DNA of 59,580 nucleotides from a virus. A model generated the notes under the pieces. That model worked only from the letters and a program-made list of their open reading frames with translations. It was not told where the DNA came from and made no database searches. A program made the translations under genes and the position numbers. Numbering within the stretch: the first letter of the stretch is position 1; each line of letters starts with the position of its first letter. The stretch lies in the IMG/VR virus record IMGVR_UViG_3300046167_000203, positions 1 to 59,580 of that record, one strand, 5' to 3'. Positions 3,001 to 46,853 of this stretch are shown in pieces.

Positions 3001-6000
3001 AACTCTATTTTGTAAAACAAGTGCGTAATCATCATAGTTTTGTACTTCGTTCTTTTCTACTTTTGATAAGCCTCTTTCATGTACCCAAGCAGGTGCTTGT
3101 ATCTGCCATGTCTCATAAGGCTGAACACCCGCAGGTAAATTTGCATTCTGTTCATTTCTTATTTTAATGTAGAACTCACTAAGGATATGATACATGACAT
3201 AATTATTTGCTATGTCATCACCTGTAATACCGAATGAGGATGCCACTTGTCTGTCATTAGTAGATAAAGGTACTTCATTTCTTATTCCGCCTAGATATAA
3301 AAAGGTACCACTAAAAGATCTAGTTTTTGGTGCTCCTAAAAATTCATCGGATAGGGCAGTTGTCACAGCAGTTGGACTTACTAAATCTGTTGTGATTGGT
3401 TTACCTTGATAATGCTCAGACAATAAAGCAATTGTTCTATACATATTGTCTATTGGATCTGCCATTGGACTAGTGGCTGCAACTACATCCCAAAATGTTT
3501 CTATCTCTGTAGAGGTCATATCTGGAAAATAATTACCAACAACTTCAGAACTTACTTCATACCAATATCGTGCTCTGTCTGGTAATTTTAAAGCATCGTT
3601 CCAAAATTCTTGTTCTCTTGGAACCATCTTATTAGTAAGACCTAATTTCTCTAATTCTGCTTTAGCACCTGGAACTTTATCTAAAGTCTCTGCCCATATA
3701 TCTGCTACAGATTTCTTACCAACATAGCCTATGCCTCTTTGAGTTAAGTCTAAGTCTGTAAATCTCTCACCATTTATAGTTTTGGCTACAGTGTTAGGTG
3801 CTTTTTGTACCGTTGCTCTTTGATACTCTGGTATTGCTTTTTGTATATCTTCTATGTTCTTAGATGGTGTGTCTGTACCATCTGTTCCATCTGTCTTACG
3901 GGCAAATAAAGGTGTGGTGTCTTGTGCACTATCACTTAGAGTTATGTACTCATAGACAGGTTTCTTTTCTGTACTATTCCCATAAAAAATTTCACCTACA
4001 ACAGGTCCTAACTCAACATTAGGTGCATACATTACTGGTCTTAAACGTGGTTGATCTTTACTGTCGGGAAAAGTAGCTAACTTAGTTGCACCATTCATAT
4101 TGACTTTTAGTGTATATTGATGAGGACCACTTGGAGATTTTGCTTTTTGGTTACCACCATTTTCTATACTAAGATTATTTGTAGATGTTACAGAAACTAA
4201 AGTGTGTATTGGGTCTGTATCATTGTCACGATCTGCCCACTTCCATTTAGTTCTTTTCTTTGCTTTTTTACTTGGGTTTACTAAGTTTACAGCCTTACCA
4301 ATTTGACCTGTAACCACTTCTGGTGGTGATAGTTTAGCTTCAACATCACTAGTAACCATTGATGGTATGCCTCTTTCGTTGATAGCAATCTCAACACCAG
4401 TATATGTTTTGCCTGTTACATCTCTGTCTGCATTGTTGTCTATGTCTAGATCAATGTAGTTACCTCCTGCTAAAGGGTTCTCTATATTCATCTGTTCTTG
4501 TACGTCTGGTCTGTTGTCTGGAACAGGGCGAACTCTGCCATAGACAGCAGTCTGATCCTCGAATGGATTATTTGCTTCTGTATCCATTCCGTATTTAGTT
4601 TTGATATTGTTTAGGTAATCATCAACTAAGTTCTTGCCTGTTAATCTTTCAAAGAATTCTCTAACGGCTCTGATGATCTGTCTGATGAAGTACTGAACTT
4701 TGTTTTCATACTCACCACTACGTCTAGTGATTGGACCTCTATATCTGTTCTCAACCATCTCACCTAAAGTAAAAGCAATATATTCTTCTGCTCTGTCTGC
4801 TATATTTAGGTCTTTATAATACGGATCGTTCTCAATAAATTGTTTATTGAAGTCTGTGTCTGGGATACTATTGTACATATCCACCATCATTTCTGGTGTT
4901 ATGTTTTTCATCTTGATACCAAAATGAACTAGCTCGTGTGCTAAAGACTCAACCCTTACAGATGGTTGTTGATTAAGTCTGATTGCAATGGCACCTCTTT
5001 GTAAGTTGCCTTCTGTCTGTTTAATCCAACCACGGATATAAGCACCAATCATTCCGTCTGCAATGTCTGGGTCTATATCCATTTTATTCAAGTAACTAGC
5101 TAGGTTTACAACGTCTACTTTCTCTAGGTCTTTATCTAAAGTTTTAGCAAACATATTTATAATCTGTCTGACAGCAGGTTTATCTTTCCCTGGGACATTA
5201 GTTAGTAAGCCTTCAATGCCTTCACCTAATGGAAGTTCACCTGCTCTTTGGACAGCATCATTAGTTTTTATATTCTGAGTTCGAGCAAACTTAACTGTCT
5301 GATTACTAGACATCTCAGCAAGTTTGTTTTTAAGAGTTTCGATTGCTTCTGCTTTATTACTACCAATTGGAGTATTTATACTATAAGCAGGTGAATCTGG
5401 TTGAAATCCTCTTTCATTAGTTTGATACCAAGCAATTGATGAGTCAATGCCTCCTACAAATCTAGATGTATATAAAGTGTTCTTACCATCTGATAAAGAT
5501 GTCACGGGAGATGCCATAGTATCAATACTACCATCAGGTAATCGTGGCTTAGTTGTCTTTTGAGTGTACTCAACTTCTGTTTCAGCTTCTGCCTGATCTA
5601 TAACCTGATCTTGTTCTGGTGTTTTGTTAAACTCAAAACCTTGGTTCATATCATACTGACCAGTTTCAGGATCAGCAAAGTATTGTGTGCCTGTCTGAGT
5701 TTCTGTTGTCTGTGTCTGGTTGAAAGGTAAGTTTGGTTGTACAGCATTGTCTTGTGTGACAGGTATCACATCGCTTGATGTCTGACCTTCAGCAGCAGTT
5801 TCAATTTTTTCTTGTGCTTCGGCTTGTCTCGCTGTTGGTTCTTTTGGTGTCTGCTCTGTCTGAGTTAATTGATCTTGAGGTCTGTTAGCTGCATCAAAAG
5901 CATCTGCCTCATCCATTTCAGCTAACATTCTGTTTCGTGCATTAATTAAACGGCTATAGACATCAGCAGTCAGCAAGATATTCTTTGGAACAGGTACTCC

Positions 6001-23890: not shown

Positions 23891-25360
23891 ATGCTTAAAT
23901 TTACAAATGAACAAAGGACTATGGTTCTAGGTGCAATTAGATCAGAATTGATCAATCAGCCACATTTAAAGCCGTCTAAAGGTGTTAACCTTTTGACCAA
24001 AGCGGAATGGATACAATTAGCGGAAGATTTGGGAATTGATTTAAATAACTTTGGGACTGTAGTTTCACAAAATATTGGTCAACAAGTTAGACAAGCTAAC
24101 CCGCCCAAGGTTGTAGCTAATCCAATTGGTCAGCCTGATTTAAAAGTGTCAGGCATAGACAAACAGTTAAATAATATTATGGGTTTGCCCGTTAAAGATT
24201 TAAGGGATCAAATTAATGATCTATTAATTTTTAAAAATAATCCGCCCATAACTGAGAAGATTGTAAAAGTTTCTGATGGTTCAGTTTCAGAAATTGGATT
24301 TCCTGAGACAGAGATTTTGCCAATCAATAAGGTTAGGTCTGAAACGGGTTCTAAACTATTTGGTTTTAGATCATTCGCAGATAAAAGTTTTGATATCTAC
24401 AATGATCCAAGGTCTCCCGTAGTTGATGAAAATTACACACCTCAAAAAGAAGTTTTAGAAATGTTCCTGAGTTGTGCATCTAATAAAGATGGAAGAATAC
24501 CTGATAATATATTTTTGTATGGAAAGGCGGGTACGGGAAAAACATCACTACCTAGATGGTTTTGTGCTAAGACGGGTAGGCAGTTCATTGCCATTACGGG
24601 AAATGCTGATCTAAGTATTGATCAGTTTTTTGGGAGTTTTGGTGCTAAGAATGGATCAACATATTGGCAAGATGGACTTTTATTAAAAGCAGTTAAACAA
24701 CCTTATACAGTTTTATTAATTGATGAAATTGCAAGAATTCCACAAAATATTTTAATTGCTTTAAATGGTGTTCTTCAAGATCGTGAATATATAATACCTG
24801 AGACGGGCGAAAGGATACCTTTTGCGGAGGGTGTTGTTATTGTAGGTGCTGATAATACAAATGGTCAGGGCGATCTGACGGGTCAATTCTCATCAGCGGT
24901 TCAAATGGATAGTTCTACACTTAGTAGATTTGCGGTATCTCTTGAGGTCTCATATCCTAAACCATCTGTGGAAAGTAAAATCTTGCAGAATAAAACGGGT
25001 ACGGGTCAAAGGCTTTGCGACAAAATTGTAGAGTTTATTAACCTTTGTAGAGATGCAAATACTAGAGGAGATGCTCCAACACTTGCTCCAAATTTTAGAA
25101 ATACAGTTTCATGGATTAACAGATTAGTTGATGGAATTGATCCTAAGATTTCTTTAATGGCTTGTATGGGCAATTCACTTGATCCATCTGATAGGGAATT
25201 GTTATCTCAATTATTTAATACTCATATTGATCCTAAGATTATGAAAATATTAGTAGTTGATGGAGAATTGCCCGCTGAAGAAATTCAGACAGAACAAGAT
25301 CAGACAGTAGACACAGAAGAAGACACGTCTGAAGATACTGAAAAGAAAATGCCGTATTAA
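23891..25360 (+). CDS. CobS/MoxR-like AAA+ ATPase, 489 aa
   Basis: Walker A is GKAGTGKT at residues 211-218 and Walker B LLIDEI at 275-280. Later come a sensor-type strand ending in GADNTNGQGD and then QMDSSTLSRFAVSLEVSYP, which matches the ATANTxGxGD...QMDRWS pattern of the cobaltochelatase subunit CobS. About 190 residues precede the ATPase domain (CobS has about 120) and the C-terminus is acidic. The neighbour is a CobT-like VWA protein, the usual partner: AAA ATPase plus VWA protein acts as a metal chelatase motor or protein remodeller. Which of these applies here is open. SD ATGGAGAAAG lies before ATG 23891. Confidence 0.85.
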   Translation: MLKFTNEQRTMVLGAIRSELINQPHLKPSKGVNLLTKAEWIQLAEDLGIDLNNFGTVVSQNIGQQVRQANPPKVVANPIGQPDLKVSGIDKQLNNIMGLPVKDLRDQINDLLIFKNNPPITEKIVKVSDGSVSEIGFPETEILPINKVRSETGSKLFGFRSFADKSFDIYNDPRSPVVDENYTPQKEVLEMFLSCASNKDGRIPDNIFLYGKAGTGKTSLPRWFCAKTGRQFIAITGNADLSIDQFFGSFGAKNGSTYWQDGLLLKAVKQPYTVLLIDEIARIPQNILIALNGVLQDREYIIPETGERIPFAEGVVIVGADNTNGQGDLTGQFSSAVQMDSSTLSRFAVSLEVSYPKPSVESKILQNKTGTGQRLCDKIVEFINLCRDANTRGDAPTLAPNFRNTVSWINRLVDGIDPKISLMACMGNSLDPSDRELLSQLFNTHIDPKIMKILVVDGELPAEEIQTEQDQTVDTEEDTSEDTEKKMPY

Positions 25361-25370
25361 AATTTTTTAA

Positions 25371-25403
25371 CTGCTCCAATATTTTTTTATTGGGGCAGTT
25401 TTT
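25371..25403 (+). terminator. GGGGCAG hairpin 3 with U-run
   Basis: CTGCTCCAATA (25371-25381) with TATTGGGGCAG (25388-25398), eleven pairs with one G-U, loop TTTTTT, followed by TTTTT. A strong intrinsic terminator ten bases after the CobS-like gene, directly before ribozyme 3. Confidence 0.85.
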
Positions 25404-25407
25404 ACTT

Positions 25408-25459
25408 CCACCTGATGAGACCTTTTGCATGGTCGAAACATAATTTTTTTATGTCGTGG
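25408..25459 (+). ncRNA. Hammerhead ribozyme 3, type I
   Basis: Stem I CCAC (25408-25411) with GTGG (25456-25459); core CTGATGA (25412-25418); stem II GACC (25419-25422) with GGTC (25431-25434); core GAA (25435-25437); stem III ACATAA (25438-25443) with TTATGT (25449-25454); cleavage base C at 25455. Every conserved hammerhead position is present, including the A-U pair next to the cut. The downstream RNA would start at 25456, 58 bases before the CobT-like ATG. Confidence 0.92.
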
Positions 25460-25468
25460 TAGCTACCT

Positions 25469-25512
25469 TAGACAGACTGACTATCATAACACACAAACAA
25501 GAGGAGCATTTT
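25469..25512 (+). promoter_or_regulatory. Conserved early leader (GACAGACTGA ... ACACACAAACAA) before CobT-like gene
   Basis: GACAGACTGA, then ACACACAAACAA, then GAGGAG before ATG 25514. The same ordered words stand before the genes at 27696, 37188 and 40228. With no -10 box at the right distance it looks like a 5' untranslated element, unstructured and A/C-rich. Confidence 0.55.
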
Positions 25513-25513
25513 T

Positions 25514-27550
25514 ATGCATAATATTATTGCATGTGAATTAGTTTCAGCGGTTGAGAAAAATACTTTATCAGCTTTGAAATATGTAACTGATTTAAAACTC
25601 AAGAAATTAAATATTAAGTGGGGCGGTTATACTGCATCCACTAGTTGGGAATATAATGACAAGAATGAATTAATTTCTAATATTAATTTTCCACCAATCA
25701 AAGCTGATGCCAAGATTACTAATTATATGGCTGAGGTTTATACGGGTTTTGCCTTACATGAGATAGGGCATAATCTCTGCACTCAAAAAGATGTTTGGAA
25801 TAAAGCAGTAGCCTTGGAGAGAAGAGGTCAGGTTGGAATTACAAGACTTTTAAATGCCTTGGAAGACCCTAGACAAGAAAAAGAATTATTGTCTAGATGT
25901 CATTTTGAGGGTGCTAAAAATGTTCTTGAAAAGTTAACCGCTTGGGCAGTTGATGAAAGTATCAAGAATGGTTTTAAAGCTGATGATCCTAGAAATTTTT
26001 CATACTGCTTAAACATCTTGGCTTATATCGATATGTGCGGGTATAGTGTCCCGTCAATAGGTTCTGCTGAAGATTTGTTAGTATCTAGCGGTAAACTTAG
26101 ACATGACCTAGAAACGGCTTTAATCAAGTTAAAAGCATGTAAAAATACTCAAGATGTTTTAGACTTATGCATTGAGTTGATGGGGCAGTATTCAAACCAA
26201 AACCAAAATCAAAGCAATCAGGGTATGGGTGTTCCTGAGAAATCTGAAGATGGGTCTGAAAGTTCTGAAGATAAATCTGAAGATGGTTCTGAAAGTTCTG
26301 AAGATGGTTCTGAAAGTTCTGAAGATAAATCTGAAGATGGTTCTGAAAGTTCTGAAGATGGTTCTGAAAGTTCTAAAGATAAATCTGAAGATGGTTCTGA
26401 AAGTTCTGAAGATGGTTCTGAAAGTTCTGAAGATAGTTCTGAAAGTTCTTCATCATCTCAAAATACTGTCAATGTTGATCGATCAGGAGAAGAAGAGCAG
26501 TCAGGTGGTTCTATATCTATAGATTTATCTGATCAGTCTTTTAAGAATAAAGAAGATTATCTACAAGAAGATGCTAAAAATAATCCTGATAAAAATGTTG
26601 ATGGAGATAGACATTCTAGAAATGAAGATTTAAAAGCAGAAACTTACAATGTTAATCAGATGGTCGATTGTGATGATGAACATTTATCTAGACGTTTAGA
26701 TAATAAACTCAAATCAGTTGATAGAGCATTAAAATTAGTTAATGTTTCTGATTGCTCTCAAACTTTATCTAGAATTCTTAAAAATCCTGATAGACGTGGG
26801 TCTAAAAGACATAGAGACAGAGGTAAATTAGATGTTAGGAAATTAGGGAAATTATGTACTAATACTCCTAATATGTTTTATCAGCCTTGGAAACAAAAAG
26901 GCACTAAAACTGCCGTATCATTGTTGATTGATACATCATCATCTATGAGAGATAGAGATTGGGGCAACATAAGAGTTAACAATGCTAAGGAAAGTATAAA
27001 CTTAGCAATGATTTTGGGTAATGCTTTGCATAAAGTTCAAGTAAAATATGCAGTAGGTTGTTATCCTTATGCGGAGACACAAAGAGGTCAGGTTGTTTCA
27101 CTATCTGAGGGTACTGAGTATTATGATGACCCTTACACTTTACTGAAAGATCATGACCATAATTGGATCAAGTCTAAAAAGTTTATTGCATCTCAACACG
27201 GTAAGGCGGGCGGTGGAACACCTACCCATCAAGCTATGATGGCTGAGGGTCTTAGGCTTAGGAAAAGGTCTGAAGATCGTAAGGTTATGATTATTATAAC
27301 TGATGGAGCACCTAACTCAATTAAGCGAACCCAACAAGCCAAAAAGATTATGGCTAAATGGGGAATTGAGGTTATTGGTCTGATCTTATGTCTTTACAAA
27401 ATCTATGCTCACATAGACCCACAACAACAAAAAAGACTAGATGAGTTTGTAAAAGATTTTGATGGTTGCTTTGATCATTTCGTAGTTGAGGGATCAGCTA
27501 AAGACATGATTAAAAAAGGTCTTCACGATCTAAACAAAATACTTCGATAA
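25514..27550 (+). CDS. CobT-like VWA-domain protein, 678 aa
   Basis: The N-terminal domain has HEIGH at residues 82-86 and NALEDPRQE at 114-122, as in CobT and related chelatase or peptidase-like proteins. Residues about 237-316 are an acidic Ser/Glu/Asp repeat linker. The C-terminal VWA domain starts before residue 470 and has the metal-ion site DTSSS at 473-477 (Asp473, Ser475, Ser477) and a later GGTPTHQA loop. This is the domain order of CobT, the partner of CobS in aerobic cobaltochelatase; the CobS-like gene is directly upstream. Whether it inserts cobalt or acts as another AAA/VWA remodeller cannot be read from sequence. Confidence 0.85.
   Translation: MHNIIACELVSAVEKNTLSALKYVTDLKLKKLNIKWGGYTASTSWEYNDKNELISNINFPPIKADAKITNYMAEVYTGFALHEIGHNLCTQKDVWNKAVALERRGQVGITRLLNALEDPRQEKELLSRCHFEGAKNVLEKLTAWAVDESIKNGFKADDPRNFSYCLNILAYIDMCGYSVPSIGSAEDLLVSSGKLRHDLETALIKLKACKNTQDVLDLCIELMGQYSNQNQNQSNQGMGVPEKSEDGSESSEDKSEDGSESSEDGSESSEDKSEDGSESSEDGSESSKDKSEDGSESSEDGSESSEDSSESSSSSQNTVNVDRSGEEEQSGGSISIDLSDQSFKNKEDYLQEDAKNNPDKNVDGDRHSRNEDLKAETYNVNQMVDCDDEHLSRRLDNKLKSVDRALKLVNVSDCSQTLSRILKNPDRRGSKRHRDRGKLDVRKLGKLCTNTPNMFYQPWKQKGTKTAVSLLIDTSSSMRDRDWGNIRVNNAKESINLAMILGNALHKVQVKYAVGCYPYAETQRGQVVSLSEGTEYYDDPYTLLKDHDHNWIKSKKFIASQHGKAGGGTPTHQAMMAEGLRLRKRSEDRKVMIIITDGAPNSIKRTQQAKKIMAKWGIEVIGLILCLYKIYAHIDPQQQKRLDEFVKDFDGCFDHFVVEGSAKDMIKKGLHDLNKILR
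26245..26450 (+). repeat. Tandem repeat coding an acidic Ser/Glu/Asp linker
   Basis: Repeated GATGGTTCTGAAAGTTCTGAA units, some with GATAAATCTGAA between them, make about nine copies in the VWA gene. The protein reads as repeated DGSESSE and DKSE blocks. High DNA identity between units points to recent expansion by slippage. Confidence 0.9.
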
Positions 27551-45341: not shown

Positions 45342-45632
45342 ATGTCGTCAAGTTTTTATACTGTTAAAAATGTAGCTAACAAATTGAACCTTGCAATTCC
45401 TACAGTTTACCTGTGGATTAATCAAGGAAAATTTGATGGTTGTGTTTACCGCTTTAATAAATCTTGGCGATTTAAGACTGACAGACTTAATCAATGGATA
45501 AAGAGAGGAGAACAAGAATGGGAAGTAACTATAGAAACGGACAATGGTATGCCGACTTTAGGATCAATGGTAAGAGATACCGACCTCCAATTAATGCAAG
45601 TTCTAAAAGGCAAGCTAATGAGAAGTCAATAA
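45342..45632 (+). CDS. xis: Excisionase-like MerR-type helix-turn-helix protein, 96 aa
   Basis: Residues 6-52 (YTVKNVANKLNLAIPTVYLWINQGKFDG ... WRFKTDRLNQWI) match the excisionase HTH family (helix-turn-helix with wing). The remaining 40 residues overlap the integrase start in another frame. With integrase downstream it is the likely directionality factor; a transcription regulator is the alternative. Confidence 0.75.
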   Translation: MSSSFYTVKNVANKLNLAIPTVYLWINQGKFDGCVYRFNKSWRFKTDRLNQWIKRGEQEWEVTIETDNGMPTLGSMVRDTDLQLMQVLKGKLMRSQ

Positions 45633-46642
45633 TTGAACGAAAGAAAAAGATAACAGAACTTGCTAAGACACAGTCTGACATTCCTTTTTCTGAGGCAATG
45701 TTAAAGTTCCTTAATAACTACTGTGGTTTAACATACACTACTAATGGTGAACTTAAATTTCAAAGAAGAGCAATGAAAGAAAGTTCAGCTAAAAGATACC
45801 TTCAAAGTATCAAGATGGTTACCCCACACTTTCAAGGCAGAATGTTGAAAGATATAACCAGACAGGACATTGCAGCTTATGTTGAATGTCGAAGAGTAGG
45901 TACAAAAGATATTAAGCCTTGTAATGATCCCACTATTATAAGAGACCTAAGTATGCTTGGTAAAATGTATGAATATATAATAAAGAATAGTACATGGGAT
46001 GGGCATAACATAGTCAGATCTTTTGATAGAAAGACACTACAAGAAAGTAAAGACAGGATAAGAAGTCTTGATGATTATGAGAAAAAGTCTGTGTTAGATA
46101 CTGCAAAGAAAAGTAAGAACCCAGATCTATATCATCAAATTCAAATTGCCTTACTTACAGGTATGAGATGGAACGAGCAGTTCTCTTTATTAAGAACAGA
46201 CTTTGAACGTACTAACTATGGACCTCAATTTGTATTGAGAGATACTGTAACGAAGAATGGTAAAATTAGGGTAGTGCCTTTGTGTGATGAAGCACTAGAC
46301 ATAGTAGAAATATTATTAAAAAAACCTGCTAGTTTTAGTGGTCATCTATTTTATAACCCAGACACAGGACATAGGGTAAATTCTAATCGCTCGTCTTGGG
46401 AAACATGTCTGAAAAATAGTGGTGTTACAGACTTTAGTTGGCACGATTTAAGACACACTTATGCCACGGATGAGATAAGAAAAGGTATGCCTATTTATAC
46501 TTTATCTAAGTTGTTGGGACACTCAAATGTAACCATCACAGAGAAGTATGCTCATCTATTTACGGAAGACTTACATGAGGCAAAAAGAAAAGTTGCCACC
46601 AAAAGTGCCACACACAGTGGAGAATATGGTGTAAGTGCTTGA
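45518..46642 (+). CDS. int: Tyrosine recombinase, phage integrase, 374 aa
   Basis: Catalytic residues (from ATG 45518) Arg217 (TGMRWNE), Lys249 (TKNGKIRV), His309-x-x-Arg312 (HDLRHTY), His335 (LGHSN) and Tyr344 (EKYAH). The N-terminus has the NGQWYADFRINGKRYR arm-binding fold. ATG 45518 has GAGAGGAGAAC upstream. It is followed by an attP site with tRNA identity, which supports site-specific integration. Confidence 0.93.
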   Translation: MGSNYRNGQWYADFRINGKRYRPPINASSKRQANEKSIIERKKKITELAKTQSDIPFSEAMLKFLNNYCGLTYTTNGELKFQRRAMKESSAKRYLQSIKMVTPHFQGRMLKDITRQDIAAYVECRRVGTKDIKPCNDPTIIRDLSMLGKMYEYIIKNSTWDGHNIVRSFDRKTLQESKDRIRSLDDYEKKSVLDTAKKSKNPDLYHQIQIALLTGMRWNEQFSLLRTDFERTNYGPQFVLRDTVTKNGKIRVVPLCDEALDIVEILLKKPASFSGHLFYNPDTGHRVNSNRSSWETCLKNSGVTDFSWHDLRHTYATDEIRKGMPIYTLSKLLGHSNVTITEKYAHLFTEDLHEAKRKVATKSATHSGEYGVSA

Positions 46643-46674
46643 TATGTATAGGTTTTCTTATATGTATCAGTGGT

Positions 46675-46712
46675 TTTTAAGTCCAGTGCGTCTACCATTC
46701 CGCCACGCTCGC
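46675..46712 (-). other. attP core: 5' half of tRNA-Leu(UAA)
   Basis: On the minus strand the 38 bases equal a tRNA-Leu from position 1 to the end of the anticodon loop: acceptor 5' strand GCGAGCG, TG, D arm GCGGAATGGTAGACGC, stem CTGGA, loop CTTAAAA. The next bases (ACCAC) no longer pair with CTGGA and no T arm follows, so this is not a functional tRNA. Typical identity segment for integration, located 32 bp after int. Confidence 0.82.
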
Positions 46713-46728
46713 AAAACCATATATCTGT

Positions 46729-46757
46729 TGTGTAGCCTAGGTTTGCGAGCTTTGCAA
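46729..46757 (-). promoter_or_regulatory. Promoter candidate facing the tRNA fragment
   Basis: Minus strand TTGCAA (46757-46752), 17 bases, TACACA (46734-46729), 17 bases before the tRNA 5' end. After integration it could transcribe the hybrid host tRNA. An inverted repeat GCTCGCAAA/TTTGCGAGC (46707-46715, 46742-46750) joins it with the acceptor strand. Confidence 0.4.
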
Positions 46758-46831
46758 GTTATTTCTAAATTATTTTTTTGGGCGATAATTTTATATATTT
46801 TCTATATTTTATATATTTTATATGAAAAAAT

Positions 46832-46853
46832 GGACACCAAAACGGACACCAAA
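46832..46853 (+). repeat. Direct repeat GGACACCAAA, 12-bp period
   Basis: Copies at 46832-46841 and 46844-46853 in the AT-rich stretch beyond attP. Candidate integrase arm-type or excisionase binding sites; length and spacing fit, nothing more is seen. Confidence 0.4.

Follow-up and report, generated by a model that had tools for sequence, protein, structure and literature searches.

A putative host-type promoter carried with the 5' half of tRNA-Leu(UAA) at the attachment site of a probable SAR116 phage

The viral stretch considered here (IMG/VR virus record IMGVR_UViG_3300046167_000203, 59,580 nucleotides, analysed whole and called the window) carries a tyrosine integrase gene (int) beside a phage attachment site (attP) that holds the 5' half of a bacterial tRNA-Leu(UAA) gene. 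With high confidence we assign this attP to a phage of SAR116 bacteria that is temperate or able to integrate, in which a carried host-type promoter and 5' half keep the rebuilt tRNA-Leu(UAA) expressed. The integrase would bind tandem arm sites on both sides of attP, the attP core would recombine with the anticodon loop of the host gene, and the 3' half of the host tRNA would be joined to the phage-carried 5' half, so that the rebuilt essential tRNA would be transcribed from the tRNA-Leu promoter and leader that the phage has as a drifted copy of the host version. The carried half is the 5' one and is placed on the P' side of attP, which is why integration would part the host gene from the promoter that it normally uses; the host-type promoter and leader on the phage would then keep the rebuilt tRNA expressed. 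Comparison of sequences establishes the identities, the junctions, the decay of the original copy and the exchange of cassettes among relatives described below.

46675..46712, minus strand: attP identity block GCGAGCGTGGCGGAATGGTAGACGCACTGGACTTAAAA, equal to positions 1-38 (the 5' half) of the host tRNA-Leu(UAA)
46713..46722, minus strand: tRNA leader ATATGGTTTT, common to the host gene and found in nearly all exact hosts and all close phage relatives
46730..46735, minus strand: -10 element CTACAC (TTACAC in the host), then a conserved AAC, located by phage-host comparison
46753..46758, minus strand: -35 element CTTGCA (CTTGCC in the host), with a 17-base spacer to the -10 element; CTTGC is invariant in 11 distinct phage or element sequences and in all 38-mer hosts

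The identity block begins 32 bp past the int stop codon and stops within the anticodon loop (the anticodon is at position 34), and the 38-base segment had 0 matches in 100 dinucleotide shuffles. A sequence-only reading of the window had proposed both that attP equals tRNA-Leu(UAA) positions 1-38 and that a host gene with the identical bases should exist. The match is exact, and 29 of 136 SAR116-order genomes carry the 38-mer, compared with 0 of 385 genomes sampled from the class of that order. All 20 of the host loci scanned with ARAGORN are complete tRNA-Leu(UAA) genes, and the other host loci read continue after the 38-mer as expected of the tRNA. These exact-match hosts belong to a different part of the SAR116 order from the hosts found first, whose tRNA-Leu(UAA) has one additional D-loop base (GGAAT[A/C]GGTAG). 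T7-like phages L169-L171 likewise have a D-loop one base longer (GGAATCGG), matching other SAR116 genomes (L005, L006 and L008); the sequence of the attP half thus seems to follow the clade of the host. Five host genomes, among them G411 and G425 discussed below, were tested for a second complete tRNA-Leu(UAA), and none was detected. ARAGORN found no complete tRNA in the window, and a permuted or complete tRNA there was rejected, with none found by ARAGORN or Rfam.

On alignment, the promoter of the phage proves related to the one in front of the host tRNA-Leu gene and is not an arbitrary promoter-like pair. The host gene is preceded by CTTGCC-17-TTACAC, AAC, a short variable stretch and ATATGGTTTT, and the arrangement CTTGC-N-17-(N)TACAC-AAC-NNN(N)-ATATGGTTTT is common to phage and host at equal spacing, with a spacer that has drifted (CTTGC shows 0% mismatch between phage and host, the spacer 45%). 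Across 11 distinct phage-type sequences, 2 of 15 columns vary in the -35, -10 and AAC compared with 11 of 17 in the spacer (Fisher p 0.005, a value that is indicative only because the compared rows are related). The sequence-only reading had named the pair TTGCAA-17-TACACA; both hexamers (46752-46757 and 46729-46734, minus strand) and the spacer stand, TACACA ends 16 and not 17 bases before the tRNA start, and in the host register the hexamers are better given as CTTGCA and CTACAC. Its suggestion that a phage-side promoter could keep the tRNA expressed gains support, since the -35, -10 and leader agree with those of the host gene. Host promoters are otherwise almost invariant across L080-L115, with the three bases just upstream of ATATGGTTTT (about -11 to -13) varying by genome. 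An inverted repeat (46702-46715 and 46742-46755) was rejected as functional, being partly in the spacer and lost in the relatives L018 and L022, and matches of L172-L174 to the promoter-module pattern were taken as chance, since they lead into no tRNA half and lie in what looks like repetitive sequence.

The proposed exchange appears to have been carried out in nature by elements of the same att type. The unoccupied site in genome G399 reads flavin mononucleotide (FMN)-dependent dehydrogenase gene, promoter, tRNA-Leu and panC, and the other exact hosts examined have a conserved gene upstream that ends ~40-100 bp before the tRNA. Two host genomes, G411 and G425, keep panC and tRNA-Leu with phage-like DNA upstream, which spans the promoter and P' side and aligns with the window from position 46671 (80% identity over ~250 bp in G411, 92% over ~150 bp in G425). 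The displaced dehydrogenase gene lies on a separate contig in each genome, beside the former host promoter and 5' half. In that displaced half, 12 of 38 (G411) and 11 of 38 (G425) tRNA bases have changed, as have 3 of 6 bases of the -10 element in both genomes and the -35 element in G425; the tRNA-proximal (attR) copy matches at 38 of 38 with both promoter elements intact. At the other junction of G411, the degraded 5' half is followed by sequence resembling the int end. An intact element copy with a decayed original is what one would expect had the tRNA come under the promoter and 5' half of the element, leaving the original free to decay. Junctions at the host tRNA-Leu gene, and the separation of that gene from its own promoter, had both been predicted from the window alone and are borne out in G411 and G425 for elements of this att type, where the decayed original stands at the far junction. 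An occupied site with a rebuilt tRNA and a displaced fragment was thus seen for the att type, and not for the window phage.

The recombination module that would act on this site comprises the following features.

45494..46642, plus strand: tyrosine integrase of 382 amino acids (PF00589, E 4e-22; PHROG 1 integrase)
45342..45632, plus strand: excisionase-like small HTH_17 protein overlapping the int start (PF12728, E 2.3e-9; PHROG 66 'excisionase and transcriptional regulator', E 6.5e-7)
46588..46612, plus strand: putative P-arm sites, two tandem 12-bp repeats AAAGTTGCCACC / AAAAGTGCCACA within the int 3' end
46826..46850, plus strand: putative P'-arm sites, two tandem 12-bp repeats AAAATGGACACC / AAAACGGACACC, also in relatives
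46675..46681, minus strand: anticodon loop CTTAAAA, the probable crossover region, around which attL and attR of G411 and G425 change between host and element sequence

The tandem repeats on both sides are likely arm sites, judging from their arrangement: the P' pair is 75% identical to the P pair over 24 nt, and equivalent pairs occur in the viral contigs L041, L191 and L195 with a motif that differs from phage to phage. A core layout of GG(T/A)-7 nt-(A/T)CC is kept in relatives and fits the anticodon stem-loop. The junctions of G411 and G425 are compatible with strand exchange in the anticodon loop, although decay of attL blurs the exact base. Ten viral contigs have close integrase relatives and the same attP. 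Element transcription, the exact positions of strand exchange and lysogeny by this phage are points that we infer. The int relatives in SAR116 genomes are just ~26-36% identical and were rejected as prophages of this kind.

Within the window integrase family, the host-identity block lies on the side away from int in either tRNA polarity, and when the block is a 5' half a promoter-like pair accompanies it. Three relatives carry a 5' half of tRNA-Ser(UGA), preceded by the host-like CTTGCC-17-GTACAC in L041 (integrase 58% identical), by TTGACA-17-TAAGTA in L191 (49%) and by TTGACG-17-TAACTA in L199 (47%). A 37-base core of the half in L191 and L199 is exact in the tRNA-Ser of many SAR116-order genomes; no host for the L041 half turned up among 136 genomes of the SAR116 order and 289 of the class. 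Contigs L188-L190 and L192-L196 instead hold a tRNA-Trp(CCA) 3' half of opposite polarity with no obvious promoter-like pair. The integrases of L191 and L195 differ at 3 of 366 residues (98-99% identical) and the flanks are nearly identical, with the difference confined to the segment between the arm repeats, a Ser 5'-half cassette in one and a Trp 3'-half cassette in the other. The Ser cassette with an L191-type integrase occurs in that single contig, so an assembly chimera needs excluding. Outside this family, the G+C-rich viral contig L045 has, by eye, a tRNA-Thr 5' half behind TTGACC-17-CTATTT just after an int match (3001-3558) and may be an independent instance of a promoter joined to a 5' half; L046 and L047 have, also by eye, tRNA-Ser 3' halves.

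The orientation of these parts bears on what the promoter does in the free phage. The int gene is on the plus strand and converges on the tRNA half on the minus strand, so in the attP form the promoter points at the int 3' end and might yield antisense RNA that limits integrase, with tRNA supply secondary. That role seems very improbable to us, as it does not account for why -35, -10 and leader agree with those of the host tRNA gene, and the relatives with Trp 3' halves have the same int orientation yet no obvious promoter-like pair.

Several points weigh against the proposal that the carried promoter restores the tRNA. A promoter matrix (27 tRNA genes of host G399) did not separate the phage site from shuffles; the host's own tRNA-Leu promoter was also not separated and Trp controls were similarly low, and because the matrix fails even on host controls, the promoter claim rests on comparison. 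The conserved promoter stretch overlaps the P' arm, and a recombination constraint could also account for it. The G411 and G425 genomes are fragmented, and their occupied loci have giant secreted-protein genes by the attR/P' arm and not window phage genes; as they hold other cargo, these loci test the att type and not this phage. Finally, the 136 SAR116-order genomes contain no complete prophage or close integrase relative.

The non-significant generic promoter score and the P' arm, which is conserved around the promoter even in L041, could be taken to mean that the upstream similarity is captured host DNA, or an arm region for integrase, IHF or excisionase, that was not selected as a promoter, with the tRNA made by read-through. 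We consider this very unlikely. Phage and hosts have only the -35, -10 and leader in common, and the hosts have no P' arm; L191 and L199 place different promoter-like pairs before their 5' halves; and in both occupied loci the original promoter has decayed and the element promoter is intact. Read-through from int is impossible because int is on the opposite strand. The absence of an intact prophage would also fit an integration that is transient and without lysogeny, as in T7-like cyanophages, where restoring the tRNA would carry little weight for this phage. At tRNA-Leu, S-TIP37 and P-SSP7 do integrate but do not form stable lysogens (PMC8776855). Such a course is possible but doubtful here, for elements of the same att type have been resident long enough for attL decay, which indicates that the att system permits stable residence.

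The resident elements themselves carry the following genes.

L101 13315-19785; L105 2-2029; L100 553-7347: giant secreted-protein genes beside phage-type P' arms (G411, G425)

These are of cadherin and RTX types, and the third, on C42 of G411 (L100), has a subtilase domain. It stands at a further junction made up of an int end, an intact 5' half, a phage-type promoter and the giant gene. The first 60 bases of L100 are not int-like and resemble the G411 attL flank. It is likely that elements lie here in tandem and lack an intact int at this end, with at least two junctions in G411, and our guess is that the cargo elements are mobilised in trans. A match in G420:C7 was rejected as an AT-rich chance match. 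Tentatively, and with rather less than even confidence, the attP centre between constant arms may be viewed as an exchangeable tRNA-repair cassette (a 3' half, or a promoter plus 5' half) that changes target tRNA and polarity with a near-unchanged integrase, and int-less giant adhesin/protease cargo elements may share this att together with its promoter cassette, in which case the integrase of the phage perhaps moves them in trans.

The carriage of a tRNA 5' half is itself already known but rare. Islands with 5' fragments of tRNA genes are a minority (159 of 3,919 islands; Islander, PMC4383910), and, like the window phage with its tyrosine recombinase beside attP, such elements bring the 5' part of the tRNA and displace that of the host; the paper does not discuss the promoter (the word occurs 0 times). 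The attP motifs of T7-like cyanophages are all first halves of tRNA-Leu (PMC8776855), and P-SSP7 and S-TIP37 resemble the window in having, beside a tyrosine integrase, 39-44 bp that are exactly those of the first half of their host's tRNA-Leu gene, where integration was demonstrated by polymerase chain reaction (PCR). The sequence-only reading had pointed to this likeness to P-SSP7. The genomes of both cyanophages are T7-like, and no promoter carriage is reported in the parts of that paper covered. In the T7-like SAR116 phages L013, L016 and L169 int is co-directional with the tRNA half, opposite to the window, and it is on these phages rather than on P-SSP7 that this comparison rests. The CTTGC/TACAC pair is absent in the T7-like groups L013-L016 and L169-L171. 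Contigs L013, L014-L016, L023, L024, L026 and L029 have the identical 38-mer and a co-directional int, lack the pair and still have the leader ATATGG in common, with a T7-like RNA polymerase and other integrases where examined.

Other systems meet the same problem differently. In archaeal pTN3 the rebuilt tRNA-Leu is cut off from its original promoter (PMC5495485; PMC8371274), and the pTN3/TKV4 integrases resemble the window in this parting. There, attP is inside int, which integration disrupts, and the integrase promoter is said to serve the tRNA (PMC8371274, PMC5495485), whereas in the window the block lies beyond the int stop, int remains intact and the promoter carried resembles that of the host tRNA gene, so the window is not of the pTN3 type. 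Phages with tRNA-dependent lysogeny also solve the breakage of an essential host tRNA gene, using a complete tRNA gene and a short core (PMC10865867), whereas the window carries a promoter and half a gene, and in the two occupied loci the tRNA is rebuilt, so the window is not of that type either. The nearest annotated relative of the window major capsid protein (45% identical) is from Roseobacter phage CRP-810 (OR671924.1), which integrates in tRNA-Thr through a 13-bp core and brings along a complete tRNA-Thr (PMC11288001), which is a third way round tRNA breakage. Elsewhere in the window (23891-27550), two genes match PHROGs for porphyrin biosynthesis and aerobic cobaltochelatase CobT, a CobS/CobT-like pair that occurs in some phages.

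According to one recent review, rebuilt bacterial tRNA genes use their original promoter 'with very few exceptions' (PMC8371274), and no report of a captured tRNA promoter in attP was found in the literature searched, which left out Williams 2002, the main source on exceptions. Novelty seems to lie in the capture of the promoter, in the test that nature has made of it and in the exchange of cassettes. A phage whose target is the 5' half of an essential tRNA gene has to supply a replacement promoter, and here one case can be traced from capture of the host promoter by a phage to a gene rebuilt in nature while the original copy decays. The L191/L195 pair offers a ready test of how a tyrosine integrase can switch targets and yet remain 99% identical. 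These findings are relevant to integration vectors and to the formation of tRNA-linked islands in abundant ocean bacteria.
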